DNA from: a virus
Reading direction: 5' to 3' (one strand)
IMG/VR virus record: IMGVR_UViG_3300032323_003252
Span: 1-49,077 of that record
Length of the DNA stretch: 49,077 nucleotides
A model generated the notes under the pieces. The model ran no database searches and was not told where the DNA came from. It worked only from the letters and a program-made list of their open reading frames with translations. Made by a program: the position numbers and the translations under genes. Below, piece by piece: positions 1,025-47,754 of this stretch. The number at the start of each line of letters is the position of its first letter. The stretch's first letter is position 1.

Positions 1025-3691
1025 TTAAAAACTAAAAAATTTATTTATATTTTGATTAAGTACTACAGCACCCCAACCCAAGTCGGAATATAATGACTCT
1101 AATTTGTTTTTCATAACTCCATCAAACAAACCGTCTCTGTCTATGTATTTTTGTATAAACTCCATTATTTCTGGAGGGTCATTATAACCATTAAATCCAA
1201 TAACATCAATTCTATAAGGGTTAGCTTTTAAATAAGCAATATACATTTTATCACCTATTTGAAATGTTGGATATTTTTTATCTAAACCTTTAAACTTTAA
1301 AATATCATTATAGTAAATAGCTGCTTTAGTATTAATAGGACATTTATTACCTAATTTAGAAAATACCTCACCAGATCTAGGAGCGGATGCAATGTATTCT
1401 CTTAATTTCTTTAGGCCTGTAGGTTTAAGTATTTTTTTCCAATCAATTGTTCTTATTGATGTTCTGAATTCAAGAATTTGTTTATCAATGTCTGTTTTTT
1501 CTTTACCAAACATGATTTCATTAATAATATGTTCTCCAAAATTCCTAAACAATGGTGGGAAATTTGATTTCATCAAATCTAATCCTTTAACATCTAGTTC
1601 ATCTGTTGGTACACCTTCTTTATTAACAATATGTTGGGCGTATCTTCTCTTACCTGCAAAATAGCCTCTATCAAGTACAACCTCTTGTTTTAGTTCAAAG
1701 TAATGAGGTTCTTCAGGGTACTTAACATTAAATAATTCTTGTACTAAAATATGTAAATTATCATTTGCTAATTTTTGTACTTCAGTTGCAACATCTAATA
1801 CTGCTTTTACAATTGTTTCTTGGTCAGCAGTAGCTAATTCTGGTTTACGGGATAAAATTAAATCTTTAACTTGAATAAACAATGAGTCAGTATCTGAAGT
1901 AACTATGTAATCTTTATCAGTTGTACCTAATTGTTCATTCATCCATTTGTTTACAAATTTAATAGATTCTTGAGTTAAGCGTTGACCAGTTAAAGTGATA
2001 GCTTTTGAAATAAATTTGTTACCATCTGTGTATCTCCAACCATTAATAGCAAATACACCATAAACGTCATTTAATTTAATTTTATAAGCATGTTGACGTT
2101 TATCATAAAAGGCTCCCATTACCGGATCCTTATCAACTTTATAAGCATGTTTCATTAAACGCTTATATTCTTGACGTTTGGCAAACCAGTCAGCTAATAT
2201 TTCACATACAACACTTGATTTATCTTTACGAAACATTACACCAGGTGCTGAAATATAAAGATTATTTTTTACAATTATTTCAATAAGTTCTTTTACTTTG
2301 ATAGTTGAAGTAGCAATTGTTCTATCTTTTTTAATTTTTTCAATATTAACAATTCTTTCAGGGTCCATTTGTTTTAATTCTTTCAATGACCACTGATTAT
2401 CAAATTTACCACTATGAACTACTCTACCAACTAATGTTTCAATTCCCATATTTAAAGAACGAATAATAGAAGGATACAATGAAGTAAAATCTAAGTCAAT
2501 AACCCATTCATATAGACCAGGTACTGGATCTTTTAAATAACCTCCAGCATATTCAGCTAATAGTACTATTTCTTCATATTCATCTTTAGAGATATTGCCT
2601 TGTTCATATTCGTATTTTGCTTTTTTAACACTAATATCTCTTAGACCTGGATTGTAAGTGGTTGGTTTATTAGGTGAAACTATATTTTTACGTTTTAAAT
2701 AAGTTAAAATAGCTCCATCATTCAATATTGTTGAGTAATAAATTGTGTTGTATTGAGTATGACACAAATGACAAATATTAACTGTTAACTCAATATATTT
2801 TTGTGCTTTTTCTAATTCAACAATAATTTCAACGTCTCGTAAGTTATAATCAATAAATTTATCTATATCATCTACAAATAATTTATCAAGTGAACCTTCA
2901 TAATCAATTTTACCTAATTTAACATATTTAGTACCTATATCACCTAAACGATAAGATGGTTCTTGTTTAGTAATAAATTTCTTAAACAACAACATATAAT
3001 CTAAGTGATTAATACCTCCAATAGTTAATGGATCATCACTATTATATTCGTTATATATAATTTTATTAATTGGAGATAGATAGTTTGCTGTTTCCTCACC
3101 TAAAATATTTTTCATACGGAAGTACAAATAAGGCATATCAAAAAATGCACTATTCCATCCTGATGAAATGGTAGGATCTAGTTTTATCCATAACTCTAAA
3201 AATCCATTTAATAAATCCTTTTCGTTAATATAAGGAATAATTTCTTTATAATCATGAGATTTAGGACTCATTATTTGTTTTTCATCTAAAATCAAACAAT
3301 AATATTTTTTAGAATTATTGTCATAAAGAGCAATAGATGTAATTTTACCTTTAGGATTACGAATATTTTCAGGAGTTAATGCTCCTGCAATTTCACACTC
3401 AATATCTAGAAAAACAATATTATGAAACTTAGGTGTTTCATCTGATTCATAGTAATAATCAACTAATAATCTAGTATCCTTATCTACATCTTTTTCAAAG
3501 TATTTAGGATCTTTCCAATTGTCCATCTTTTTTACAGGTGATACAGTTGTACCTTCTAAAGTAACAAATTCACCATCAGGATCAGCAACATAAAATGTAG
3601 GATAGTGTTGAACAGTTTTAAAACCACTCCATCTATCATCTCTCAAATAATATTGTCTTTCGTCTTTATCGTAAAAGATAGCTTGATACAT
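1025..3691 (-). CDS. 43: DNA polymerase, family B (gp43-like replicase)
   Basis: An 888-residue polymerase, about the size of T4 gp43 (898). The proofreading exonuclease is intact: Exo I FLDIECE (D96, E98), Exo II SGWNSAFFDMPYL and Exo III YNLRDVEIIVE. Polymerase motif A is DLDFTSLYPSIIRSLNM, motif B is KIKLNDVYGVFAINGWR, and motif C is VTSDTDSLFI, with the catalytic Asp residues present. It copies the phage genome with the adjacent sliding clamp. A rho-independent terminator lies between the upstream dUTPase and this ATG, so the polymerase and clamp probably have their own promoter or are expressed by readthrough. A second polymerase-like gene of family A lies about 16 kb upstream. Confidence 0.97.
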   Translation of the reverse strand: MYQAIFYDKDERQYYLRDDRWSGFKTVQHYPTFYVADPDGEFVTLEGTTVSPVKKMDNWKDPKYFEKDVDKDTRLLVDYYYESDETPKFHNIVFLDIECEIAGALTPENIRNPKGKITSIALYDNNSKKYYCLILDEKQIMSPKSHDYKEIIPYINEKDLLNGFLELWIKLDPTISSGWNSAFFDMPYLYFRMKNILGEETANYLSPINKIIYNEYNSDDPLTIGGINHLDYMLLFKKFITKQEPSYRLGDIGTKYVKLGKIDYEGSLDKLFVDDIDKFIDYNLRDVEIIVELEKAQKYIELTVNICHLCHTQYNTIYYSTILNDGAILTYLKRKNIVSPNKPTTYNPGLRDISVKKAKYEYEQGNISKDEYEEIVLLAEYAGGYLKDPVPGLYEWVIDLDFTSLYPSIIRSLNMGIETLVGRVVHSGKFDNQWSLKELKQMDPERIVNIEKIKKDRTIATSTIKVKELIEIIVKNNLYISAPGVMFRKDKSSVVCEILADWFAKRQEYKRLMKHAYKVDKDPVMGAFYDKRQHAYKIKLNDVYGVFAINGWRYTDGNKFISKAITLTGQRLTQESIKFVNKWMNEQLGTTDKDYIVTSDTDSLFIQVKDLILSRKPELATADQETIVKAVLDVATEVQKLANDNLHILVQELFNVKYPEEPHYFELKQEVVLDRGYFAGKRRYAQHIVNKEGVPTDELDVKGLDLMKSNFPPLFRNFGEHIINEIMFGKEKTDIDKQILEFRTSIRTIDWKKILKPTGLKKLREYIASAPRSGEVFSKLGNKCPINTKAAIYYNDILKFKGLDKKYPTFQIGDKMYIAYLKANPYRIDVIGFNGYNDPPEIMEFIQKYIDRDGLFDGVMKNKLESLYSDLGWGAVVLNQNINKFFSF

Positions 3692-4204: not shown

Positions 4205-4894
4205 TTAAATTTGATGTCCTCCATTATTAATTTTAATACTATCAAAGAATTCTTGACGAGATAGATTATTATTATCCATAAACACACCTGATGCTTTTGT
4301 GGTAACCATTGAAGCACCTTGGTGTTTTACACCTCTACAGCTAACACAATTATGTGTAGCAACTACAGTCACAATAACACCTTTATTACCTTCAGTAATT
4401 TTATCTACTGCTTGGTGGATTGCTGATGTAAGTTGTTCTTGAATAGCACCTCTACGACCAAAATGTTCTACAATACGATTTAATTTACTTAAACCAATTA
4501 CTGAACCGCCTTCACCTACTACATAACCAACATGAACAACGCCTCCAATTGTTTGGTGGTGATGAGAACACATTGATGTAAGTGGAATATTTCTTTCAAT
4601 TACAATACCATCATAACCATCTGAGGGGAAAGCTGTAATGTCAGACATTGGTTCATATCTACCTTTCCATAGGTCAAATACATATGCTTTAGCTACTCTA
4701 CGAGGAGTATCTTGGGAATTAGGATCATTTCTCCAATCACACCCTAAAGCATCTAAAAATTGTCCATATGCTTCAGTTGCTCTATCTACCATTTCCCATT
4801 TTTCATCTTCGGTTAATGGAAAACCAGGGGCAACACCATTAGCATATCCTTGTTTTACTACTTCTAAATTTAATTTAAATGTTTTATTATTCAT
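4205..4894 (-). CDS. folE: GTP cyclohydrolase I (FolE), first step of 7-deazaguanine synthesis
   Basis: A 229-residue FolE of normal length from the ATG at 4894. A longer in-frame reading overlaps the HPRT gene and adds no conserved sequence. Zinc ligands are C109 and H112 in MCSHHHQTIGG, and C183 in THNCVSC. SVIGLSKLNRIVEHF and the C-terminal RGVKHQGASMVTT match the family. It converts GTP to 7,8-dihydroneopterin triphosphate, the substrate of QueD. No folate genes are nearby, whereas queD, queE, a queC-like gene and a dpdA-like gene are in the same run. The likely role is therefore DNA-base modification rather than folate supply. Confidence 0.95.
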   Translation of the reverse strand: MNNKTFKLNLEVVKQGYANGVAPGFPLTEDEKWEMVDRATEAYGQFLDALGCDWRNDPNSQDTPRRVAKAYVFDLWKGRYEPMSDITAFPSDGYDGIVIERNIPLTSMCSHHHQTIGGVVHVGYVVGEGGSVIGLSKLNRIVEHFGRRGAIQEQLTSAIHQAVDKITEGNKGVIVTVVATHNCVSCRGVKHQGASMVTTKASGVFMDNNNLSRQEFFDSIKINNGGHQI

Positions 4895-4910
4895 AACTCT
4901 TTGTAATATA

Positions 4911-5414
4911 TTAATCTTCAGGTAAATATCCAAGTATATGTGATAAATTCCTTTTTGTACCGTCAGCCGCATCTAATCCATATCCTACTAACCAATGTTC
5001 GTTTTGTAATTCAAAACCATAAATTAAATCAGGACTATTAGAATAATGCTTTTTAAATAACGTAACTGGGGTAATTGATTTTGGTTTTAGGTAATTTAAA
5101 TGTTTAATCAAACGATTCATAGTATTACCTGAATCGTAAATATCATCTACTAAATAAACATCTTTTCCTTCAATATCAATATCAATTGATTTTAGAATAC
5201 GAATTTCACCCTGCGATGTTCCTTCGTAAGATTTCGCACTTATAAAGTCTATATGGCAATCACCTACTTGTTTCACCAAGTCCGTAAAAAACATAAATGC
5301 GCCGTTTAAAACGCATATAAACACGGGAGATTGTTCGTGTTGTCTTTTTTTAATGTTGTAAGCAATTTCGCCTACTTTGTTTTTAATTTCTTTTTCTGTA
5401 AACAGTGTTATCAT
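4911..5414 (-). CDS. hpt: Hypoxanthine/guanine phosphoribosyltransferase
   Basis: A 167-residue purine phosphoribosyltransferase. The PRPP-binding loop is VYLVDDIYDSGNT. VFICVLNGAFMFFTDL matches the N-terminal strand and pyrophosphate loop. The base-binding region near the end reads LVGYGLDAADGTKRNL. It should convert hypoxanthine or guanine plus PRPP into IMP or GMP. Its ATG overlaps the stop of the upstream thioredoxin-like gene (ATGA), so the two are translationally coupled. It sits next to folE within the 7-deazaguanine block. One possible job, inferred here, is to salvage the guanine released when DpdA swaps bases in DNA, returning it to the GTP pool that FolE uses. Confidence 0.92.
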   Translation of the reverse strand: MITLFTEKEIKNKVGEIAYNIKKRQHEQSPVFICVLNGAFMFFTDLVKQVGDCHIDFISAKSYEGTSQGEIRILKSIDIDIEGKDVYLVDDIYDSGNTMNRLIKHLNYLKPKSITPVTLFKKHYSNSPDLIYGFELQNEHWLVGYGLDAADGTKRNLSHILGYLPED

Positions 5415-5669: not shown

Positions 5670-6072
5670 AAAGTTTAGAATCAGGAAGTTTATATTTATC
5701 TTTTACTGTTTGAGAAATAGATATAGGAGCTCCTTCATCATCTACTCTAACAAAAGTCATACTTGTTTCTAATAATGTAACCTCATCTCCTCTAAAAACA
5801 TTATATGCTCTTGCCTCTACTTTAAAGGTTGCTGAAGTGTTTCCTATTTTAGATACTTCAGCATATATTTTAACTAGATTTTTTTCTTTTGCTGGTTTTT
5901 TAAAAATACACTTATCTATAGCTACTGTAATCATGTTTTGGGATCTACATTTTTCCATTGCATAAGCAGCAACCGCGGCATCTATCCAGCTAAGTAATTT
6001 ACCGCCGAATAGATTACCGTGGAAACCTAAATCTAATTTTTTAACAGGATGTGTTGATAATAAATCCATCAT
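5668..6072 (-). CDS. Acyl-CoA thioesterase-like hotdog protein
   Basis: A 134-residue single hotdog-domain protein of the YciA/acyl-CoA thioesterase type. The signature is near the N-terminus: GNLFGGKLLSWIDAAVAAYA, the hotdog helix with its active-site region. MTVAIDKCIFKKPAKEKNLVKI and SMTFVRVDDEG follow the expected strand order. Family members hydrolyse acyl-CoA thioesters. Its start overlaps the QueE stop (ATGA), so it is coupled to the 7-deazaguanine genes. Why a phage keeps it there is unclear. It might act on a different thioester or modify host lipid metabolism. The fold is well supported, the substrate is not. Confidence 0.85.
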   Translation of the reverse strand: MMDLLSTHPVKKLDLGFHGNLFGGKLLSWIDAAVAAYAMEKCRSQNMITVAIDKCIFKKPAKEKNLVKIYAEVSKIGNTSATFKVEARAYNVFRGDEVTLLETSMTFVRVDDEGAPISISQTVKDKYKLPDSKL

Positions 6073-6854
6073 ACAGCACGTTTAGTATCGTAAGCAATAA
6101 TGTGATCTCTACCAGTCCAATTATAACCCATTTCCATACATTTTTCAATTGAAATAGGATACATATGAATCAATGTTTCTCTAGTATCACCAGCAGGCAT
6201 TAACCATGTTTTCCATTTTGGAATATCCATTTCAACTCTAAATGATTCAATTTCATTTAAATTTTCTTCAGTTCCATCCCATACTGGTTTAAAATGATAG
6301 TCACCATGATAAGCCATCATTTGAGACATTGCTTCTTTATTTAAACGAAGCTTATTGTGTTGATCAATCATTTTTTGGTCAACCAACTTACCCATTGGCG
6401 TAGTAACGTCAAGCTTTGGGACACTATTACTAAACTTAGGGCTAAGAGATACCAACCCGATTGGGTAATCTGTTTCAACGTAGTGAGAACCTTCTGTTTC
6501 AATGGTTATAAATATACCCCTAGAATAGGCAAAATGAGTAAGTTCATTTACTAAATCTGGTTGCATAGTTGGAGAACCACCTGTTAACATCATTTCTCTA
6601 ATATGAGGATTCTCATCATAGATTTTAATAATGTCGTTAAATGTATAAATACCTTTTTCTGGGTGAATACTTGTGTACCAAGAATCACACCAACCACCTT
6701 CACCAAACCAACATCTGTGGGTACATCCTGTTGTTCTAATAGCTATAGTTGGTCTACCTTGTCTTGAACCTTCTGATTGTACACAAGGATACAATTCAAG
6801 TAAAGGTAATTTTTTGTTATAGTCTGTAATACGACCTGGTTTTTTAATTTCCAT
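6069..6854 (-). CDS. queE: 7-carboxy-7-deazaguanine synthase (QueE), radical SAM
   Basis: A 261-residue radical SAM protein. The family signature is QSEGSRQGRPTIAIRTTGC followed by the cluster cysteines C44, C48 and C56. Here the second and third cysteines are seven residues apart (CTHRCWFGEGGWCDS), instead of the two residues of the common CX3CX2C motif, so the cluster loop carries an insertion. The glycine-rich SAM motif LTGGSP and ITIETEGS (as in other QueE proteins) follow. It converts 6-carboxy-tetrahydropterin to 7-carboxy-7-deazaguanine (CDG). It is next to queD, its substrate supplier, and overlaps the thioesterase gene. Confidence 0.93.
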   Translation of the reverse strand: MEIKKPGRITDYNKKLPLLELYPCVQSEGSRQGRPTIAIRTTGCTHRCWFGEGGWCDSWYTSIHPEKGIYTFNDIIKIYDENPHIREMMLTGGSPTMQPDLVNELTHFAYSRGIFITIETEGSHYVETDYPIGLVSLSPKFSNSVPKLDVTTPMGKLVDQKMIDQHNKLRLNKEAMSQMMAYHGDYHFKPVWDGTEENLNEIESFRVEMDIPKWKTWLMPAGDTRETLIHMYPISIEKCMEMGYNWTGRDHIIAYDTKRAV

Positions 6855-6856
6855 AA

Positions 6857-7321
6857 TTATCCTTTATAAAATGCTGTGTTTTTTTCATGTTCACGGAATT
6901 CAACTTGTACCACTCTAACACGACCTTCTGTTTCTGCTTGTACAAAATCGTTTAGCTTATTATAAAAATATTCAGCAAAACGTTCTGCTCCTACTGATGG
7001 TAGTATTCTTAGCTGTACAGCTCCGGTCGCGTCTAGTGTTTTAAAAGTATCTAATAATGGATCATCCTCTGCCATAATGGTTGTATGATCAAGCATATAA
7101 TCCATCCATGCTTTAGGATTCATACCATCAATAGTACCTTTAGCACGTTTCATACCACCAAAATCCCAAACCCAATTACGCTCATCAAGTTCACCTTCGA
7201 ACCATACTTTTAAACTTACTCCATAACCATGAAGAAACTTACAATGTGTTCCTTTGGCTCTCCATTGACGGAATACTGTTGAATAACCGTCAAATACTTT
7301 TGTTGATCTAAAACTACCCAT
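6857..7321 (-). CDS. queD: 6-carboxy-tetrahydropterin synthase (QueD)
   Basis: A 154-residue protein of the PTPS/QueD family. The catalytic Cys and zinc-loop region read HCKFLHGYGV (C27, H31). LDHT (D78, H79) supplies the usual Asp-His pair. PSVGAERFAEYFYNKL and the late Glu in VVQVEFREHEKNTAFY match family positions. The canonical HGH pair is HGY here, and the first zinc His of the usual xxAH motif is replaced within STVFRQW. I believe such FRQW/HGY forms make up a known subfamily, so this need not mean inactivation. It converts dihydroneopterin triphosphate from FolE into the QueE substrate. Its start overlaps the upstream thioredoxin by 8 bases. Confidence 0.9.
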   Translation of the reverse strand: MGSFRSTKVFDGYSTVFRQWRAKGTHCKFLHGYGVSLKVWFEGELDERNWVWDFGGMKRAKGTIDGMNPKAWMDYMLDHTTIMAEDDPLLDTFKTLDATGAVQLRILPSVGAERFAEYFYNKLNDFVQAETEGRVRVVQVEFREHEKNTAFYKG

Positions 7322-8439: not shown

Positions 8440-9309
8440 TTATTTATTATGTTCTTCTAAAACTTGTTTTACATATTCAACAACATATTCCCAAGTTACT
8501 GGGCCGAATTCATCAGCGTAATTCACTGCATCTCTTCTACCTAATTTCAAAAATGCTTCTACACGTTCAACTGAGGATGCTGATTTAAAATCGGAAAACC
8601 ATTCTTCATATTCTTCAACATCACCGTTATCTAAATGGTAATAAACTTTTAGTTTAATTGGTTTATAAGATGTGTTTGTACGTCTATAAACTTCATCAAA
8701 GTCTAATCCTAGTTGCTCACAACATACTAAACCATCTTCTAGAATAGTAAATTTATTTCCTTCCATATATGGAGTATAATAATTTACCAATTCAGAATTC
8801 CAGTTACCTATTTTAAAAGCATATTCATCTGCATTTCTGAAATTTTCGGTACAATCAGGATAAATTGTATGATCCCCGCTATGTACTCCCATAGCAATAA
8901 CACATTCTGTATTATTAGCTTCAGCAATAGATAAGGCAACTGCTTGAATAATTGAACTAAATATTTTGTTTCTATTAGGTACAACTGTTGCTTTCATATT
9001 TTCTTCAGCATAATGACCTTCAGGAACTTCTGCTCCACCTGTTACTAAAGCTGAGTTTAGTAGCTGAGATAAACCGTCAAGTTTAATTACTTGATACTTT
9101 ATCAATTCATAATCTCTAGGACGGTCAGACATGTAAGTTTGACCATTAATATAATTTACTAATTCCTGAGCGCGTTCAAGTTCAACTGAATGTTTTTGAC
9201 CATAGTCAAAAGATAATGCTGTTACTTCATAGCCGTTGGCAAGTAGATGAAGCAGTAGAGTGGAAGAATCCATTCCTCCACTCAATGACAATACTGCTTG
9301 CTTTTTCAT
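8440..9309 (-). CDS. queC-like: QueC-like ATP-pyrophosphatase lacking the zinc site
   Basis: A 289-residue homologue of 7-cyano-7-deazaguanine synthase. The PP-loop SGGMDS (residues 10-15), FDYGQKH, VPNRN and GVHSGDHTIYPDC follow QueC. Normal QueC has four cysteines binding zinc (CY..., then CGxCxxC before VERxEAF). Here the aligned residues are S214 (TNTSYKP), D240, S243 and S246 (SDFKSASSVERVEAF), so all four are lost while the surrounding sequence is kept. About 18 extra residues separate the two halves. QueC normally turns CDG into preQ0 with ATP and ammonia. This variant may catalyse a different ATP-dependent step on CDG. A phage CDG decarboxylase named DpdL has been predicted in the literature; whether it matches this variant I cannot tell. 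It overlaps the upstream gene by 1 base. Confidence 0.88.
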   Translation of the reverse strand: MKKQAVLSLSGGMDSSTLLLHLLANGYEVTALSFDYGQKHSVELERAQELVNYINGQTYMSDRPRDYELIKYQVIKLDGLSQLLNSALVTGGAEVPEGHYAEENMKATVVPNRNKIFSSIIQAVALSIAEANNTECVIAMGVHSGDHTIYPDCTENFRNADEYAFKIGNWNSELVNYYTPYMEGNKFTILEDGLVCCEQLGLDFDEVYRRTNTSYKPIKLKVYYHLDNGDVEEYEEWFSDFKSASSVERVEAFLKLGRRDAVNYADEFGPVTWEYVVEYVKQVLEEHNK

Positions 9310-14781: not shown

Positions 14782-16149
14782 TTAGTCTGTTTGTAGTTCG
14801 AAAAATTTGTTTCTCATAAGGGCTTTATCTACTGAGTCAATAGTGCCAAAACCATTGCTTTGGCTAGCTGATGTAGATGAATCATCGTCATCATCAATTT
14901 GGGTGGAAACTTCAAAATGACCTGTGGATGTATCAGCTTTAACACTGAATGTCATACCATCCATTCCATAGCGATTTTTCATGATGTGAAATCTTCCTGT
15001 TCCATTGACTTTATCTTGACGTTTTCTTGATAAGGATATAGCGACATCGGTAACCATCATTTTATCATAGGAACCGGCAGCTTTATCACCTTCAATAATA
15101 TCATCTTTTGCACCAGCACGGTTTACTTGAGATACACTCCATATTGGTAAGTTTAACTCTCTAGCAAGTCCCTTAGTGCTTATATAAATATCATCAATTT
15201 CGTCCTTACGCTCACGATTATTTTTCTTTGAGCGAAGAAGGTCTACGTAATCAATAATAATCAAATCTGGTTTAAAATCTAGGTCAATACACTTTTTAAT
15301 ATGTGACTCAATAGTTCCAATAGATGCTTTACCTGTTGGATATTCTTTAATAATTAATTGTCCTGATAATTGGGATACTGCTTCTTCTACTTTGTCTTTA
15401 TGTTTGGTAATATTTTGTACACCAATTCCTGTATAAAAAGCGTCATATCTTCGTCCTACATAATCAGCTCCTAATTCTAAAGTATAGTGAATAACATTGT
15501 ATCCTAATTTAACAGCATAACCACCTAAAGCAACTAATGACCAAGATTTACCACCACCAGGATTACCAAATATAAGTCCAAAGTCACCTCCTCCTAATCC
15601 ACCACCTAATAATTCATTGAATGGTTCCCAAGGTGTTGCAACTGTTAATCTATGATCTTCACGGTAACGAGATTCAACGTCTTTGTTGTACTCATGGCCC
15701 ATATTTTTGTCTTGACCCGCTTTTAACGCGTTATCAACAATTGATCTTATAGAGTCATAGTCTCCCGCGTTTAAAAAGTCTACGCTTGTTAACAACGCTT
15801 TCTTAAGTTGTTGGTTTTTACAAAAATTAGAAAATTCTTCTTCAACATATTTTAAATCCTCGTCTGATGCTTTATAAGCTTCACGAAGTTGTTCTTTAAT
15901 TGATAGTTGAAGTACCTCGTTGTCAATCTTTTTTAATTCAACTTTTAGAACATCCATACTAGGACAAGTATGGTACTTTTGGAAATAACCTAGGATTTGT
16001 TTAATAATCCATTTGTGGGCTTGGTTATCAAAATATTCCTCACTTAATACATCCTGAATGTTTAATAGGAATTCTTTATGTGTTAATAGAGAGGATAATA
16101 CTTTGATTTGAAACCCAACCCCGTATTGGGACAAATTGTTTAATGTCAT
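14782..16149 (-). CDS. 41: Replicative DNA helicase, DnaB/gp41 type
   Basis: A 455-residue helicase. The N-terminal helical domain covers about residues 1-150. The RecA-like motor then has Walker A GNPGGGKSW, Walker B LIIIDYVDLL, and the later motifs WSVSQVNRAG and FHIMKNRYGMDG (arginine-finger region). It ends in an acidic, Ser-rich tail (DDDDSSTSASQSNGF). It should act as a hexamer unwinding DNA at the fork. It sits between the exonuclease and the reductase in the replication cluster. No separate primase gene is visible in this window. Confidence 0.93.
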   Translation of the reverse strand: MTLNNLSQYGVGFQIKVLSSLLTHKEFLLNIQDVLSEEYFDNQAHKWIIKQILGYFQKYHTCPSMDVLKVELKKIDNEVLQLSIKEQLREAYKASDEDLKYVEEEFSNFCKNQQLKKALLTSVDFLNAGDYDSIRSIVDNALKAGQDKNMGHEYNKDVESRYREDHRLTVATPWEPFNELLGGGLGGGDFGLIFGNPGGGKSWSLVALGGYAVKLGYNVIHYTLELGADYVGRRYDAFYTGIGVQNITKHKDKVEEAVSQLSGQLIIKEYPTGKASIGTIESHIKKCIDLDFKPDLIIIDYVDLLRSKKNNRERKDEIDDIYISTKGLARELNLPIWSVSQVNRAGAKDDIIEGDKAAGSYDKMMVTDVAISLSRKRQDKVNGTGRFHIMKNRYGMDGMTFSVKADTSTGHFEVSTQIDDDDDSSTSASQSNGFGTIDSVDKALMRNKFFELQTD

Positions 16150-17216: not shown

Positions 17217-17240
17217 TACAAAAGCCCGATTAATCAGGCT
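17217..17240 (-). terminator. Terminator-like hairpin overlapping the uvsX stop codon
   Basis: AGCCTGATTAATCGGGCT folds into a stem of seven or more pairs (one G-U), followed by TTTGTATAAAAG on the minus strand. The uvsX stop TAA lies in the loop. Translation to the stop would keep the stem open, so termination may depend on ribosome position. Confidence 0.6.
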
Positions 17241-18312
17241 CTTGTTCAAAGATATTCATGGTTTCAAATTGTTCTTCTTCTTCAAAAATATCGAAGTCCA
17301 TTCCACCAAGAACTTGCATCCATTCACTAGCATGTGCATCCTTATAGCTCTTAATTTCCTTATCGGTATCATTAATAAAGCCATGAGGAGTCATAATGAT
17401 TTTACCACGAGTAGTAATACCATTGATGTGATTTTTGTCAATCTGAATGTTTGTACGTTTAGCAAATTCAACTTGTTTACCATCTTTAATGGCTTTGATT
17501 TTACTTGTACCAGCATTTGAAATATTACCAAAAGTAATTACAAACGTAGCATCAAACCACATAGCAAATCCACCTTTATTCATCAACTTAGGTTGACCCA
17601 TAGGTACTTCTGCTTTTGCTGTCCAAACCTTATTTACACATACTAATGTATTAGTATAAGGTGATGATTCTTTACGTGACAATGTAATTTTTTGGTTAAT
17701 ATTGTTACCAAACTGTGTAGACATCGCACCTGCATTCCATTCATTATTGTTTTTGTTTGATTTAACAGATAGTTCACAAGGAACTGAACCGATTGAATCC
17801 CAGAAGAAACATAAATCGTAAGGCAAATTACCTTTTTTCTGTTCATCTAATAAATCAGCAATGAATACTGCTACGTCCTCGATTGTATTGATTGTTTCTC
17901 TATCAACATACAAGAAGAAACCACTAAAATTGTTTACTTCTCCTGTTTCCTTGTCAACATCCATTTCAACCTCAAGGCCCATTTGGATTGCGTGTTCCCA
18001 ATTCCACTTCATCTCAGTGATAATGAAAACTGGTAAAATACCCAATTTTTGAGCATTAACAGCACCTTCAATCATTGCTGTTGTTTTACCTGTATCACTA
18101 TGTCCTCTCAAAAGAACAATGTGCCCGGTAGGAATACCAGGCACACTAGTTACTTCTTGAAAGGCTGGACTAAGTGGGATCCACTTTTGGTCTTTAAACT
18201 TAACGTTTCCGTTAAGCATTTTCTTCTCCTTGAATTTATCAAGGTTGAAGTTTGCTTTAATCTCTTTAGAGACTGCCGCCGTTAGCGATTCGCTTTTCTT
18301 AGTTCTAGCCAT
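17230..18312 (-). CDS. uvsX: UvsX/RecA-like recombinase
   Basis: A 360-residue strand-exchange protein. The Walker A motif is GHSDTGKT (residues 70-77), preceded by PGIPTGHIVLLR. The Walker B region is YDLCFFWDSIGSVPCE, and a loop typical of RecA/UvsX follows (NAGAMSTQFGNNINQKI). The ending is acidic (DIFEEEEQFETMNIFEQEPD). It coats single-stranded DNA and drives strand invasion for recombination-dependent replication, together with the gp32-like protein encoded just upstream (17-base gap). It could be called RecA; synteny with gp32 favours UvsX. Confidence 0.92.
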   Translation of the reverse strand: MARTKKSESLTAAVSKEIKANFNLDKFKEKKMLNGNVKFKDQKWIPLSPAFQEVTSVPGIPTGHIVLLRGHSDTGKTTAMIEGAVNAQKLGILPVFIITEMKWNWEHAIQMGLEVEMDVDKETGEVNNFSGFFLYVDRETINTIEDVAVFIADLLDEQKKGNLPYDLCFFWDSIGSVPCELSVKSNKNNNEWNAGAMSTQFGNNINQKITLSRKESSPYTNTLVCVNKVWTAKAEVPMGQPKLMNKGGFAMWFDATFVITFGNISNAGTSKIKAIKDGKQVEFAKRTNIQIDKNHINGITTRGKIIMTPHGFINDTDKEIKSYKDAHASEWMQVLGGMDFDIFEEEEQFETMNIFEQEPD

Positions 18313-18329
18313 AACTTTAATTTAAATAA

Positions 18330-19178
18330 TTAGAAAGGTAGATCGTTGTCGTCTTCTTCTTCAAACAAAGAATCAAATTGATCTGCTTTTGATGCTTTAG
18401 GAGCTAAAGGAGTTTTCAAAGCATAAGTTTTAGCATTTGTAGTTACTGCTTCTTCTACTTCTGTTTCATCCTCATCATCAATGATTGAACCTTCTTCTGG
18501 TTCTTCTGGAGATAACCAATTTTGTAAAACTTCTTTAATTTCATCATAATTTCTCTTACGTTGAACTTCCAAAATACTTGGTTGTTCGCTAAGGAAAGTA
18601 CCGATCAAAGTAGCATCTGCACTCAAAGGAGTAGTTTTAGGTTTAATACGGATAGATGTTTTCAATCCTTGACGACCACCAATATCACCTTTAACGGCTT
18701 CAACAGTAAAGTCTCTACCTTCGTTGATGTCTGTGTAATCACCATAATCTTCATCATCTGCAATACCTAAAAGCTGCATGTAAATTTCTTTACCAAATTC
18801 CCAAAGGCGTACACCTTTTTCTTCCTCGCCACGTACAATAACGGGAGCAAAGATTCTCATTTTAGGGTCCAATTTTTTAGCCAATGACCAATTTTCTTTG
18901 TCATTAGTTTTTCTCAATTGAGCAGCAAATTCTACGATTGGGTCTTTTTCGCCCCAATTTGTTAAGGCATAAATAGGAAATTTTCCGAACCCATAGTGTA
19001 CAAAAACCTCTTTGAATGGGTTTTTAGGGTCCAATTTAGATGGCACAATACGAATTTGGTACTTGCCTTCCTCTTTTGGTTTCCAGTAAACTTTTGAGTA
19101 ATCAATTTTTTCTTTCTTGCCTGTGTTGTTCGTCGACTGTAAAGCGTTTAGTCGTTGTTTAATAGCATTAATATCCAT
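18330..19178 (-). CDS. 32: Single-stranded DNA-binding protein (gp32-like) with SSB-type tail
   Basis: A 282-residue protein in gp32 position and style. It has a basic N-terminus (MDINAIKQRLNALQSTNNTG), an OB-like core beginning YWKPKEEGKYQIRIVPSKLDPKNPF, and a long acidic C-terminal region. The very end, EEEDDNDLPF, matches the acidic Leu/Ile-Pro-Phe tip of bacterial SSB, a feature I do not associate with T4 gp32. It protects single strands and recruits replication and recombination proteins. It has its own promoter-like sequence and a 98-base leader, in line with a gene needed in large amounts. Confidence 0.88.
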   Translation of the reverse strand: MDINAIKQRLNALQSTNNTGKKEKIDYSKVYWKPKEEGKYQIRIVPSKLDPKNPFKEVFVHYGFGKFPIYALTNWGEKDPIVEFAAQLRKTNDKENWSLAKKLDPKMRIFAPVIVRGEEEKGVRLWEFGKEIYMQLLGIADDEDYGDYTDINEGRDFTVEAVKGDIGGRQGLKTSIRIKPKTTPLSADATLIGTFLSEQPSILEVQRKRNYDEIKEVLQNWLSPEEPEEGSIIDDEDETEVEEAVTTNAKTYALKTPLAPKASKADQFDSLFEEEDDNDLPF

Positions 19179-19542: not shown

Positions 19543-19971
19543 TTAAAGTTCAACAATCTTAAATACTTTTGTATTCAATTGTTTCAACTCATTGTGATTA
19601 GTCAACAAAATACAGTTTTTATAATGTTGCCAATTCACACGGTAAGTAGGATCAACTACACCACCGTTTAATTTTTTTATTAAATCATTCAACGCATTAA
19701 TTGTATAAAGCGTATTAGTTTCTTTCTTTCTGTGTACTAAAATAGTATTTACTGGAATTGAATCAACATTACCTTGTTCTACATTATAAGTAACAACATA
19801 TTCGTCTGTACTCTTTACATACAAAACAAACATCTTGTTGTACATAATTGAGTACGCTTTAGTAATAGCGGCAATCAATTGATCAAGTCCCTCTAAATCT
19901 GTAAATGTACAAAATAACTTATTATTCACGTCTCTTATGTTTATAGGTTCAAAATCGTATCCCATATACAT
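19543..19971 (-). CDS. Hypothetical protein, 142 residues
   Basis: An unrecognised soluble alpha/beta protein (YDFEPINIRDVNNKLFCTFTDLEGLDQLIAAITKAY...). The start at 19971 leaves a gap of 4 bases after the family A polymerase-like gene. An upstream in-frame ATG at 20007 would overlap that gene by 32 bases. The conserved-looking middle (NTILVHRKKETNTLYTINAL) contains no motif I can name. Tight coupling to the polymerase-like gene suggests a related function, but this is only positional. Confidence 0.7.
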   Translation of the reverse strand: MYMGYDFEPINIRDVNNKLFCTFTDLEGLDQLIAAITKAYSIMYNKMFVLYVKSTDEYVVTYNVEQGNVDSIPVNTILVHRKKETNTLYTINALNDLIKKLNGGVVDPTYRVNWQHYKNCILLTNHNELKQLNTKVFKIVEL

Positions 19972-19975
19972 ATTG

Positions 19976-21265
19976 TCATTTTTTCGTAAAATCGTATGTG
20001 TCTCCATAACCTGTTTTTGTTAATAATTTATATTTTTCAAATATTTTTCCAATTTCAATCTCAATATCTTTCTCGCCTTCCCCTACCTCAAATAAAAATG
20101 AATCGTAGGTATATAATACGATCTTAGTTTTCTTACCTCTCAACAACTTATGTATATCCATCAATATATAAGTGTTGACAGCCGATTCCACATTCTGTAA
20201 CATATAGTTAAACAGTTTCTGTGGATTCATATTTTCCAGCTTGTCTTTTTCAAAGCAATAACCTGAAATTGGCACGATAACTTGACCCGAGTTATTGAAC
20301 TCTTTCCAGTTATTGTCTACAAATTTCTTTACTTGTTGAAAAAATTCAAGGTGCTCATACTCTTTAAAAACCCCGCCATAAAGTTGTTTGAACGTGATTT
20401 CTTTTGCCTCTTGGTAACTCGTGCCGTATAATTCTGCGAAGGCTTGGTGGACATCTCTATGGCTAAAAACATAGGTAACCAAACGAGCAACAAGATTAGG
20501 ATGGTATGCACTAATATCGAATTCAACCAAACCATGACTCGATACGAAGCTCCTCCTTGCGCCATTATCTTTGTTTAATGCGGCAAAATTAATGCCATTA
20601 AAAGAGTTACTTGGTCTACGTGTTGTTGTAGCCAAATTATAGCATGTGTAGATCCTATCGCCTTGGATTGAATAAAATTCGTGATTGAGCTCATAGTGTT
20701 TATCAAATTCATACTTGTTTATTTTAATTCCGTTCTTTTCTATTCCAAAAAATGCTAATACTACTTTGTTGTTGTAAAAATCAAACCAAGCAGGTAGCTC
20801 TTTAGGCATTACACTACGAACGTGTTTATAAATATGTTCGCATCTTTCGTAATGCTTGCTTACCGGCACAAGTTTATTAACCTTTGGATAATCCGGATAT
20901 TTGGAATAAAAATGGTTAAATACTTTTGGTGGATCTTGTATATACGGAGGGGTAAGTTGAGATAGGTCACACAAGCTTTTAATTGGAAAATAATATAATG
21001 CTTGTTTTTTATCTTGTACCCACACACGCTCTATACTTTGTAGTATAGCGCCTATAATCGTTTTATTAAGCGAGGTAGTTTCACTATGGTCAACGCATAA
21101 CATATAACCTTTTGTGTCATTAAACGGTCTAATATACACTAAAGACACATCATTTAAAGCAGGGTGTATGTTATCGTGATATGGAATTATTTCAACAAAT
21201 GCCTCTTGTATGGGCTTTTGCTTCAAATAATCCAAATGCTCTTCTTTTTCAATTAGCCAAAACAT
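19976..21265 (-). CDS. Divergent family A DNA polymerase-like protein
   Basis: A 429-residue protein carrying a recognisable Pol I palm. TTTRRPSNSFNGINFAALNK corresponds to the T-GRxSS...PNLQNIP region. Motif A is LVEFDISAYHPNLVARL (D250). The motif B-like segment is EAKEITFKQLYGG (K288, Y296, G297). QNVESAVNTYILMDI precedes motif C-like LYTYDSFLFEV (D388, in place of HDE). Both catalytic Asp residues are kept. No 3'-5' or 5'-3' exonuclease domain is visible, and the 200-residue N-terminus is unfamiliar. It could be a repair, priming or lesion polymerase beside the family B replicase. It is the first gene downstream of the tail cluster and has a promoter-like sequence. Confidence 0.8.
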   Translation of the reverse strand: MFWLIEKEEHLDYLKQKPIQEAFVEIIPYHDNIHPALNDVSLVYIRPFNDTKGYMLCVDHSETTSLNKTIIGAILQSIERVWVQDKKQALYYFPIKSLCDLSQLTPPYIQDPPKVFNHFYSKYPDYPKVNKLVPVSKHYERCEHIYKHVRSVMPKELPAWFDFYNNKVVLAFFGIEKNGIKINKYEFDKHYELNHEFYSIQGDRIYTCYNLATTTRRPSNSFNGINFAALNKDNGARRSFVSSHGLVEFDISAYHPNLVARLVTYVFSHRDVHQAFAELYGTSYQEAKEITFKQLYGGVFKEYEHLEFFQQVKKFVDNNWKEFNNSGQVIVPISGYCFEKDKLENMNPQKLFNYMLQNVESAVNTYILMDIHKLLRGKKTKIVLYTYDSFLFEVGEGEKDIEIEIGKIFEKYKLLTKTGYGDTYDFTKK

Positions 21266-34337: not shown

Positions 34338-34349
34338 ATAATAAATATT
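34338..34349 (-). promoter_or_regulatory. ATATTTAT element before the 219-residue gene
   Basis: The coding strand reads AATATTTATTAT, 2 bases before the ATG. It overlaps the stop region of the LamG gene upstream. Confidence 0.45.
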
Positions 34350-35001
34350 ACAAACCAAATCTTCCTTTTTGAGCGTTATAGTTTTGTAGGATTTCCGCAT
34401 TAGAAAGCCCTCTATTGTAAACCATTGTTGTATAAATTTTTCCATTATATTGTTCGTTAGTAGTAGAGTTAGTTCCAATTCTAAAGTTTGAATTTGAATT
34501 CCCTATTGAAGCATTTGAACTGCCTGTACTTATTACTATTCCATTTTTTAAATAGTTAGTTGTAGTTCCAATTCTTCTTCCAGCAATCATAGTAATTGAT
34601 GTTGTGAAATTACTAGTAGAAGCATATGCACTGCTATTATCTAACCATAAAAAAACATAAGAATTGGACCACCCAAATTGTAAATTACCAGAATTATAAT
34701 TACCAAAGGTAGTTCCAACACCAGCACCATTAGATTGAACCCACTGAATTATTGTAAAGTCACTAGTTCCAGATAATAACCCATTTGGTAAATTAACATA
34801 ATCATCCGACCCATCAAACACAATTGATGATGCATTTCCAGCAGAACTAAAGGTAGGACCATTTGTTAATGTTCCATTATTTGATCCTGCTAAATCTCTC
34901 CACGTAGTAGAACCTGATGTATATGAATTTTGGTCTGAGGCATCTAGGGATAAAATTAGACCGTCTGTAACTATTCTTCCATTTGCGTATTGTGTTGCCA
35001 T
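34348..35001 (-). CDS. LamG/concanavalin-like adhesion protein (paralogue 6)
   Basis: A 217-residue single LamG-like domain: VTDGLILSLDASDQNSYTSGSTTWRDLAGSNNGTLTNGPTF, then SIVFDGSDDYVNL, FTIIQWV, a variable central part, and IYTTMVYNRGLSNAEILQNYNAQKGRFGL at the end. Such jelly-roll domains bind sugars and often sit at tail fibre tips. It is one of six related genes in the window. Five of the six end in RFGL or RFGI, perhaps a docking peptide. The variable part lies between about residues 85 and 150. Confidence 0.88.
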   Translation of the reverse strand: MATQYANGRIVTDGLILSLDASDQNSYTSGSTTWRDLAGSNNGTLTNGPTFSSAGNASSIVFDGSDDYVNLPNGLLSGTSDFTIIQWVQSNGAGVGTTFGNYNSGNLQFGWSNSYVFLWLDNSSAYASTSNFTTSITMIAGRRIGTTTNYLKNGIVISTGSSNASIGNSNSNFRIGTNSTTNEQYNGKIYTTMVYNRGLSNAEILQNYNAQKGRFGL

Positions 35002-35002
35002 A

Positions 35003-35683
35003 TTATAATCCGAATCTACCTTTTAAGGCGTTAAAATTTTGTTGAATTTCTGCTTGTGAAAGCGCTCGATTGTACATACTAGCATATGCTATTTTTGCAT
35101 TAACATATCTACCTATAGTATAATCTGTACCTATCATAAGATTAGTTCCCACAGTTGTATTTGCTGTTACATTTGTATACGAACGTACAACAACATTATT
35201 ATTTACTTGAAAAATAGATTGTGTTGGATTCACAGAAACACAACAAAAACACCATGTATTAAGGGGAATTGGTATTCCAGGATCATAAAGATATGTATTA
35301 GGATCATCATTCCAATGATATCCGATTCCTGTAGGTGTTGGGTATAACAAGTTCATTCCTGTTGTGCTTCCTCCTCCTCCTCTATTAAATACTAATCCTG
35401 TTCCTTGAGTTCCGTTATTGTATCTATTAATTATTATTGTAAAGGTTAATGCATTAGATGTTATACTATTTGTATTACAAGTAATAGAATCATTTGTTCC
35501 ATCAAGTACAATTGACCCTAACGACCCAGTATCAAAAGTAGGTCCATTATTTAATGTTCCATTATAAATTCCTGCTAAATCCCTCCATGTAGTAGAACCA
35601 GAAACATATGAATTTCTGTCACCAGCATCTAATACTAGTACTAATCCGTTTGTTACTATGGTTGGTCCGTTTGAATAACTCAT
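35003..35683 (-). CDS. LamG/concanavalin-like adhesion protein (paralogue 5)
   Basis: A 226-residue relative of its neighbours. It has TNGLVLVLDAGDRNSYVSGSTTWRDLAGIYNGTLNNGPTFDTG, IVLDGTNDSITC, a divergent middle with CFCCVSVNP, and the shared end ASMYNRALSQAEIQQNFNALKGRFGL. The next gene follows after 1 base. It has its own ATATTTAT element. Sugar or surface binding at a fibre tip is inferred from the fold. The unusual cysteine run in the middle is not seen in the paralogues. Confidence 0.88.
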   Translation of the reverse strand: MSYSNGPTIVTNGLVLVLDAGDRNSYVSGSTTWRDLAGIYNGTLNNGPTFDTGSLGSIVLDGTNDSITCNTNSITSNALTFTIIINRYNNGTQGTGLVFNRGGGGSTTGMNLLYPTPTGIGYHWNDDPNTYLYDPGIPIPLNTWCFCCVSVNPTQSIFQVNNNVVVRSYTNVTANTTVGTNLMIGTDYTIGRYVNAKIAYASMYNRALSQAEIQQNFNALKGRFGL

Positions 35684-35687
35684 TTAT

Positions 35688-35697
35688 GATAAATATT
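35688..35697 (-). promoter_or_regulatory. ATATTTAT element before LamG paralogue 5
   Basis: The coding strand reads AATATTTATC, 4 bases before the ATG. Confidence 0.45.
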
Positions 35698-35698
35698 T

Positions 35699-36415
35699 TT
35701 ATAGTCCAAAGCGTGCTTTTTGTGCGTTGTAGTTTTGGAGGATTTCTTGGGCTGAGAGTGATTGATTATACATTATAGAATTACTTATATTTCCTTTAAA
35801 AGGAGCAACAACACCAGATGTTTTAGTATAAGTTCCACCGACAATTACTTTATTATTTACAGCATCATACCCCACACCGCTAGACCAAGTTGTATTAATA
35901 TCAAGAACTCCATTAACATAGCTTTTCATATTAAGACCATCATAAGTTATAGAAATTTGATACCATGTATTTATATTAATTGTTGTAGTTCCAGTTATAT
36001 CAATGTATAATCCAGCTCCACTGCCTGTGTTTGCTCCTACCACATATCTAACTTTATGTGGGTTGTTCCATAATTGACAGAAAAAACCAGCTACTAATAA
36101 TTCTGAGTAACTACAAAAGATACCTTGTTGTCTTCCATCACTATCGGTATTATACACCCAAGAACTTAAGGTAAATGTAGAAGGTCTAAGGATTAAAGGA
36201 TTACCACAATCAACATAATCATTAGTTCCATCAAATACAATACTACCCAACGACCCAGTATTAAAAGTTGGCCCATTAGTTAAAGATCCAGAATTATTAT
36301 TTCCTGATAAATCATACCAAGTAGTCCCAGACCCAGGATAAGAATTTTTATCGGCTGCATCTAAGGATAGTACTAATCCTGTTTCTACTGTATTTGGTCC
36401 TCCGTGTACGGGCAT
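35699..36415 (-). CDS. LamG/concanavalin-like adhesion protein (paralogue 4)
   Basis: A 238-residue protein with the clearest LamG pattern. VETGLVLSLDAADKNSYPGSGTTWYDLSGNNNSGSLTNGPTF and FDGTNDYVDCG come first, then FTLSSWVYNTDSDG, WYQISITYDGLNMKSYVNGVLD and KVIVGG. It ends SIMYNQSLSAQEILQNYNAQKARFGL. This resembles LamG repeats that bind polysaccharides. It opens the second triplet of paralogues, next to the 1016-residue fibre and the 91-residue protein. Confidence 0.9.
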   Translation of the reverse strand: MPVHGGPNTVETGLVLSLDAADKNSYPGSGTTWYDLSGNNNSGSLTNGPTFNTGSLGSIVFDGTNDYVDCGNPLILRPSTFTLSSWVYNTDSDGRQQGIFCSYSELLVAGFFCQLWNNPHKVRYVVGANTGSGAGLYIDITGTTTININTWYQISITYDGLNMKSYVNGVLDINTTWSSGVGYDAVNNKVIVGGTYTKTSGVVAPFKGNISNSIMYNQSLSAQEILQNYNAQKARFGL

Positions 36416-46344: not shown

Positions 46345-47067
46345 TTAATCATAATTAAATCTAAGTTTATAATAATTGTATAAACTAACTATTTCACTAT
46401 TAGATAAAGCTCTATTATATAAAGATACAACTCCCATTTTACCTCTAAACATTTCATCATTACCATCTCCTCCTATTACTATATCTTGAGAATTACCTGT
46501 TGTTGTTAAAGCATCACTTGATACTTGTACTCCATTTAAAAATCCTTGAGAGGAAGAAGCACCAATTCTAGCTACAGTAAAATAATATTTATCTCCTGTA
46601 TAATTAGTATATAAATCAGGTGATGAGTTAAAAGCTGTTGGGGTTTCTATATGTAAATATCTTAAACTAGAACCAGGTCCTGTTTGATTTATTGAAACTG
46701 CTACTCTTTGGTCAGGGTCTTTTTTACTATATAAAGCCATCCACGGTGTATCTCCACTAGCTAATATTTTAGTTTGTAAAGTATGAATTAAAACTACTGT
46801 TTGTTGAGTTAAATTAGTTAATGTTGGAGTATTTGTAATAATAAATTGGGCATTATTTCCTATAGTACCTGCTGAAAAATTAAAATATCCTAATGAATTC
46901 CACTGTGGGGAATTTACATCTGATGTTTTTATAGCATTATGTCCAAATCCTGACAGGTCAAACCATGTATTTCCTGTACCAGGATAGGAATCTCTATCAC
47001 TAGCATCTAATAAAAGAACTAAATTACTTGTAACAGGGAGTAAAAGATTTGAAAATTGTACTGACAT
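46345..47067 (-). CDS. LamG/concanavalin-like adhesion protein (paralogue 3)
   Basis: A 240-residue LamG protein: VTSNLVLLLDASDRDSYPGTGNTWFDLSGFGHNAIKTSDV, LTQQTVVLIHTLQTK, a central KDPDQRVAVSINQTG, then IVIGGDGNDEMFRGKMGVVSLYNRALSNSEIVSLYNYYKLRFNYD. The ending is RFNYD instead of RFGL/RFGI, so it is the most divergent of the six at its C-terminus. Its start region lacks the motif 'NGPTF' present in most of the others. Sugar binding is inferred from the fold. Confidence 0.87.
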   Translation of the reverse strand: MSVQFSNLLLPVTSNLVLLLDASDRDSYPGTGNTWFDLSGFGHNAIKTSDVNSPQWNSLGYFNFSAGTIGNNAQFIITNTPTLTNLTQQTVVLIHTLQTKILASGDTPWMALYSKKDPDQRVAVSINQTGPGSSLRYLHIETPTAFNSSPDLYTNYTGDKYYFTVARIGASSSQGFLNGVQVSSDALTTTGNSQDIVIGGDGNDEMFRGKMGVVSLYNRALSNSEIVSLYNYYKLRFNYD

Positions 47068-47073
47068 AATTAT

Positions 47074-47754
47074 TTATATTCCAAACCTCCATCGGTTTGC
47101 ATTAAAGTTTTGTGTTATTTCTGCTTGAGTAAGTGCTCTATTATATAATCTATAAATAGCTTGATATCCTATAAAAAAACCAGCACCACCATAACCAACC
47201 CCTAAATTTATATTAGTAGTTCCTATATAAGACTGTATTGTACCTGATCCTTGTAATACAGCATTTTTATATATTTGGCAAGCACCGTTAGATACATTAT
47301 AAGTATAAACAATTTGATACCAGTTATCTAAAGCTACAGTACCTGCTTGAAAATCATATGATGGAGGACTACCATAATGACCTTGATATATAGTTCCATC
47401 TCGAAACATTAAATGTAAACCTTGTCTTATAGAAGCACCTCCATCACCAAATATTCCTCTATCTCCTACTAAACTTTGAGAAGGATAAACCCAAGCTTCT
47501 GCTGTATAACTTGCATCATACATTCCTAAACCAGTAGCATTTTTATTTAAACTTATAAATCCACCACCTCCATAAACAAAATAATTATTTAAATTCCAAC
47601 TAACTGTACTTCCAAAAGTTCCTGTTGTTGTTAAATCTACAGCATTATATACTGTAGTTCCTAATCTAGGGTAAGATGTAGTATCTATAGCATCTATAGA
47701 AAATGTTAAACCATTATCTACAATTAGTGGTGGTCCTCCTGAAATTCTTCCCAT
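47074..47754 (-). CDS. LamG/concanavalin-like adhesion protein (paralogue 2)
   Basis: A 226-residue LamG protein: DNGLTFSIDAIDTTSYPRLGTTVYNAVDLTTTGTF, YTAEAWVYPSQSLVGDRGIFG, DNWYQIVYTYNVSNGACQIYKNAVLQGSG, GVGYGGAGFFIGYQAIYRLYNRALTQAEITQNFNANRWRFGI. The first third is divergent, but the WxYPS strand, the WYQIVYTY strand and the final helix are typical. The paralogues on both sides follow after 3-6 bases. Confidence 0.88.
   Translation of the reverse strand: MGRISGGPPLIVDNGLTFSIDAIDTTSYPRLGTTVYNAVDLTTTGTFGSTVSWNLNNYFVYGGGGFISLNKNATGLGMYDASYTAEAWVYPSQSLVGDRGIFGDGGASIRQGLHLMFRDGTIYQGHYGSPPSYDFQAGTVALDNWYQIVYTYNVSNGACQIYKNAVLQGSGTIQSYIGTTNINLGVGYGGAGFFIGYQAIYRLYNRALTQAEITQNFNANRWRFGI

Follow-up and report, generated by a model that had tools for sequence, protein, structure and literature searches.

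The viral DNA analysed here (IMG/VR record IMGVR_UViG_3300032323_003252, 49,077 nt, referred to as the window) encodes a family B replicase, and the question is what a second polymerase of another family does beside it. The replicase is gp43-like, carries a 3'-5' exonuclease domain and is located at 1025..3691 on the minus strand. The second gene begins with an ATG, occupies 19976..21265 and encodes a protein of 429 residues. A first-pass annotation of the sequence had delimited this ORF exactly, without its strand, which is minus. It described the product as a stripped-down family A polymerase next to a gp43-like enzyme, and the present results support that description, with polymerase activity being probable and predicted. 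The motifs it listed are all present (D250, K288...Y296-G297 and Y387-D388-S389), as is the family B polymerase; its interpretation as a whole is supported in part.

The window protein is almost certainly a member of divPolA1, a group of divergent family A DNA polymerases. Yutin et al. (2024, Virol J 21:200, PMC11348598) named the group in 14 phages, where it accompanies a regular PolA, PolB or PolC. Its reported features are a conserved palm, a truncated thumb, an inactivated exonuclease in which all three catalytic Asp residues are lost, and replication genes downstream (PMC11348598). The founding protein, whose accession is listed in that paper, is that of Flavobacterium phage immuto. Homology to it is confirmed (36% identity across 91% of the protein, E 1e-77), and the window protein is a direct homologue that likewise keeps the palm, has a truncated thumb, serves as a second polymerase and is followed by replication genes. 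When searched alone, it has no match in Pfam or among PDB sequences, and a family profile is needed. The divPolA1 profile matches Klenow at E 1e-6 in two pieces (HMMER), and the immuto homologue scores over the Pfam DNA_pol_A cut-off (E 4.6e-11). The kind of polymerase is already known, and the window gene is a new, uncultured member of it.

The family is more widespread than the published set. Relatives of the window polymerase occur in six GenBank phage records, including immuto, where the protein is annotated 'DNA polymerase family A', Microcystis phage Mel-JY01, where it is hypothetical, and an uncultured 484-kb record (LR756508). Hundreds of divPolA1 relatives or contigs are present in IMG/VR, as found by one single-protein scan and three alignment-guided scans; each of the latter gave at least 600 pattern matches, which is a floor on pattern matches and not a count of the family. 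The coexistence of a second polymerase with the replicase, described as unusual in the first-pass annotation, is therefore not unprecedented, given the 14 published phages and the hundreds of environmental contigs. Six divPolA1 loci are found in bacterial MAGs. The divPolA1 contigs L127, L129, L130 and L131 are binned with bacteria (Winogradskyella, Flavobacteriales, Rickettsiaceae and others) and are probably phage contigs. In Mel-JY01 the gene annotated 'DNA polymerase I, TIGR00593' (L049:20357-21397) encodes only a 5'-3' exonuclease (PF02739), and the real divPolA1 gene (L049:14962-16188) carries the annotation 'hypothetical'.

The structure model, built with AF2 from an alignment of 102 divPolA1 sequences, has a mean pLDDT of 95.1 and a pTM of 0.92. 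In Foldseek it matches Klenow and other large fragments of Pol I best (E 5e-17). Residues 1-428 superimpose on residues 300-876 of Bst Pol I with a Z score of 25.9 and an rmsd of 3.9, with 398 of the 429 residues aligned (VIA-align). The comparison with Pol I that had been proposed as a check thus gives a Pol I fold from end to end, palm included. Just 31 of the 429 residues stay outside the alignment, so it must take in at least some 100 of the first 130 residues (20876..21265), in the part where Pol I has its 3'-5' exonuclease domain. The protein is indeed unfamiliar, as both Pfam and the single-sequence PDB search were empty, but its N-terminus, which had been called unfamiliar, does align with this domain. 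The proofreading domain of divPolA1 is probably vestigial or degenerate, judging from the model and from the published loss of its catalytic Asp residues (PMC11348598).

A feature that went unnoticed in the first-pass annotation is the missing thumb. Residues 161-188 align with Pol I 526-554 and residues 200-413 with Pol I 650-908 (hhalign), and about 12 residues thus occupy the place of about 95 in Pol I: the thumb is lost. The short linker that replaces it comprises residues 189-199 (20669..20701) and is delimited by hhalign and by the two-piece HMMER match. The remaining residues, 200-429 (19979..20668), form the palm and shortened fingers, as placed by hhalign and by motifs A, B, 6 and C. 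About 30 residues follow the Tyr-Gly of motif B compared with about 46 in Pol I, which indicates that the fingers are reduced. A thumb is present in canonical family A enzymes, and membership as used here does not require one. Since a truncated thumb is a published hallmark of divPolA1, the claim is limited to a divergent family A polymerase and does not extend to a Pol I-type enzyme.

The active site was surveyed in 258 near-full-length homologues. Seven residues are invariant in all 258: R217 (R668 of Pol I), the motif A catalytic D250 (D705; 20516..20518), H255 (E710), K288 (K758), Y354, Q357 (Q849) and E360. The motif C catalytic D388 (D882; 20102..20104) is found in 256 of 256 sequences where the position is aligned. 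The motif B (O helix) pattern K-x3-F/Y-x3-Y-G is kept, with K288 in 258/258, F292 in 253/258, and Y296 and G297 each in 257/258. Motif 6 of the window protein is N353-Q357-E360 and motif C is Y387-D388. Three Pol I positions are changed: E710 is the invariant His, R754 is Tyr in 251/258, and E883, which is S389 in the window protein, is occupied by Ser in 200 homologues, by Ala in 56 and by Glu in none. The dN/dS of the window gene against four close relatives is 0.12-0.17, and divPolA1 is under strong purifying selection. Together with the invariant residues among the 258 homologues, this excludes a chance motif.

The palm active site appears to be intact and the enzyme is probably active, as judged from its conserved residues. 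The family A polymerase of phage Tt72 has Asp-Ser in motif C and is active (PMC9324360); therefore, the loss of E883 alone does not equal a loss of activity. In Pol I, E710 is the gate that excludes ribonucleotides (PMC9324360), and so no feature of the family is more suggestive than the invariant His at this position. With both E710 and R754 replaced, the activity could differ from dNTP polymerisation.

Known systems resemble divPolA1 to different extents. The large fragments of bacterial Pol I (Klenow, Bst and Taq) share its fold from end to end along with motifs A, B, 6 and C, and the exonuclease domain of Bst and Taq is inactive, as is probably that of divPolA1. They differ in that divPolA1 lacks the thumb, has shorter fingers, carries the E710 to His, R754 to Tyr and E883 to Ser/Ala changes and is only about 16% identical. 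By its description, divPolA2 of barbaviruses is likewise an additional family A enzyme that lacks a thumb and accompanies PolB, but it has an N-terminal domain unrelated to known domains, a variable neighbourhood and sometimes several paralogues (PMC11348598). Tt72 PolA shares the Asp-Ser of motif C, whereas it is a full polymerase with strong proofreading and keeps the E710 equivalent (PMC9324360). A literature search returned no biochemistry or bench study of a divPolA1 member, and a search for thumbless polymerases gave nothing.

The genes around the polymerase are those of a replication cluster. In the window, all on the minus strand, they encode a gp32-like single-strand DNA binding protein (SSB; 18330..19178), a UvsX-like recombinase (17230..18312), a 5'-3' exonuclease of the Pol I N-terminal type (PF02739/PF01367; 16155..17192) and a DnaB-like replicative helicase (14782..16149). 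Of the 115 divPolA1 loci that extend at least 6 kb downstream, 113 have SSB and 113 have UvsX, while 112 have the Pol I-type 5' nuclease and 104 have DnaB. PolB was found in 15 of the 18 divPolA1 records searched, and the regular replicase of immuto is a 777-aa PolA. Of ten records 128 kb or longer, eight encode a DnaG-type primase, among them the three GenBank phage records tested (immuto, Mel-JY01 and LR756508); the two records without one may be fragments, and the window's own record is a 49-kb fragment below that size. Since a full replicase and a DnaG-type primase are generally encoded as well, divPolA1 would as a rule be neither the replicase nor the only primase. The earlier suggestion that the protein starts replication is not borne out for this reason, and priming as its main role is unlikely.

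A small tree of the palm places divPolA1 in a group of its own (100/99 support) on a long stem. The phylogeny called for in the first-pass annotation therefore separates the group, but it gives no firm place among family A groups because the tree contains long branches, that of T7 above all. A recent duplication of the co-resident PolA is rejected, as divPolA1 groups apart from immuto gp199 (100/99).

The polymerase also has an almost constant companion, a 154-aa protein (19543..20007, minus strand), for which homologues suggest an internal Met near 19974 in place of the listed start. Its gene comes after the polymerase gene, usually directly and sometimes 2-4 kb off. It is present in 149 of 150 eligible divPolA1 loci, and divPolA1 is present in 71 of 71 loci that were found through the 154-aa family and had at least 4.5 kb available upstream; many of these loci are related, so the counts are not independent trials. 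The two proteins occur in the same six GenBank phage records. Wherever the flank sufficed, the 154-aa family, with its core motif HRKK-x-TNTLYTINALN, was seen only with divPolA1. The model of the protein is confident in the core (mean pLDDT 90, pTM 0.77). Its matches in Pfam, PHROGs, PDB sequences and folds are all weak and fall in families with no relation to each other, and the best fold match (Z 6.9 on residues 21-91) is a ferredoxin-like arrangement common to many proteins. The protein belongs to no known family, matches no specific fold and takes no function from homology.

The divergence of divPolA1 was compared with that of its neighbours in 63 loci, which were left from 94 carrying all six genes once near-copies had been removed. 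The measure is the partial correlation between the pairwise distances of each gene and those of divPolA1, with the mean over the other four genes held constant. It is highest for the 154-aa protein (0.64), followed by the 5' nuclease (0.48), the helicase (0.46), SSB (0.02) and UvsX (-0.39). The 154-aa protein ranked at the top in 275 of 300 subsamples; with the near-copies kept (94 loci), the 5' nuclease comes first (0.61 vs 0.55). divPolA1 thus diverges in step with the 154-aa protein, the helicase and the Pol I-type 5' nuclease, and not with SSB or UvsX. As the pairwise distances depend on one another, the co-variation ranks candidate partners and does not prove an interaction.

The best explanation as a whole, held at somewhat short of an even chance, is an accessory, distributive, non-proofreading polymerase for gap filling and Okazaki maturation, in effect a split Pol I. 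The full PolB, PolA or PolC replicase would carry out bulk copying and the Pol I-type 5' nuclease of the same gene cluster would remove the primers. The remaining gap would be filled by divPolA1 in short, distributive, non-proofread stretches, above all at the completion of Okazaki fragments. A thumbless enzyme would have to be held on the DNA by another factor, for which the 154-aa protein is the prime candidate. Gap filling was among the roles first proposed for this protein and is the best supported of them, but we infer it only tentatively. Against it, its basis is gene-cluster membership and correlated distances, both of which also arise from shared ancestry. T4 finishes its Okazaki fragments with RNase H and the replicase alone, so an extra polymerase is not strictly needed. 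A polymerase with no thumb and short fingers may also bind DNA too weakly to act alone. A related and rather doubtful reading makes this weakness central: divPolA1 would be inactive or non-processive by itself and the 154-aa protein would provide the grip on DNA in trans, possibly with an altered sugar selection through the steric-gate His.

The main rival of the gap-filling role, itself unlikely, is a polymerase for recombination or damage tolerance that would extend the D-loops made by UvsX or bypass lesions through its open, thumbless, non-proofreading site. UvsX and SSB belong to the same cluster (113 of 115 loci each), and fewer DNA contacts without proofreading could suit lesion bypass; however, with the other genes controlled, the correlation with divPolA1 divergence is negative for UvsX (-0.39) and close to zero for SSB (0.02). 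The steric gate points in another direction. With the Glu of Pol I replaced by His in 258/258 homologues, the protein could use rNTPs or start chains, either as an alternative primase or as an RNA polymerase of short transcripts. T7-type RNA polymerases have HDS in motif C, which the YD[S/A] of divPolA1 recalls, and without a thumb a long duplex is not demanded. This role is improbable nonetheless, since 8 of the 10 records of at least 128 kb already encode a DnaG-type primase, the nearest structures are Pol I DNA polymerases, and the Pol I-like domains account for the whole chain and leave no room for a promoter-binding domain.

The substitutions at E710, R754 and E883, shared by all or nearly all members, would also fit a protein without catalytic activity that serves as a scaffold or regulator in the replisome. 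Both catalytic Asp residues, the motif B Lys and the equivalents of R668, Q849 and Y766 are invariant or nearly so in the 258 homologues, which is unexpected for a dead enzyme and makes this reading very improbable. The first-pass annotation had also proposed copying of modified templates, and a role dedicated to phage DNA containing 7-deazaguanine might be suggested by the QueC, QueD, QueE and GTP cyclohydrolase genes of the window and by a DpdA annotation in immuto. However, no QueC was found in the complete Mel-JY01 genome, the 484-kb LR756508 or contigs G005-G007 (157-197 kb). Since several divPolA1 records lack a detectable QueC, 7-deazaguanine is not the common thread; a general link is rejected, and the dedicated role is the most improbable of those considered. 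A search for the TGT family with PF01702 gave no match, even in immuto with its annotated DpdA (L052:18090-18884), so this probe is blind here.

Common in environmental T4-like phages, divPolA1 provides a natural test of a family A polymerase whose thumb is absent and whose steric gate is a His. Its reciprocal link to the 154-aa protein is a concrete handle on the function of both proteins. If the split Pol I reading is true, one polymerase of the phage would do the bulk copying and another would complete the fragments. Beyond PMC11348598, this analysis adds the wider distribution, the invariant residues, the estimate of selection, the distribution of primase and QueC and the reciprocal 154-aa linkage. 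The text of that paper contains no discussion of the invariant His, Tyr and Glu positions, of how large the family is in metagenomes or of a linked 154-aa protein, and its Fig. 4B may show the 154-aa gene.

The window also has two sets of genes apart from the replication cluster. The 7-deazaguanine pathway, which resembles that of phage immuto, comprises GTP cyclohydrolase (4205-4972), QueE (6069-6854), QueD (6857-7321) and QueC (8440-9309), on the minus strand. Two further minus-strand clusters, at 34348-36415 and 46345-47754, encode five paralogous virion-type proteins (phrog_24074/phrog_8510).
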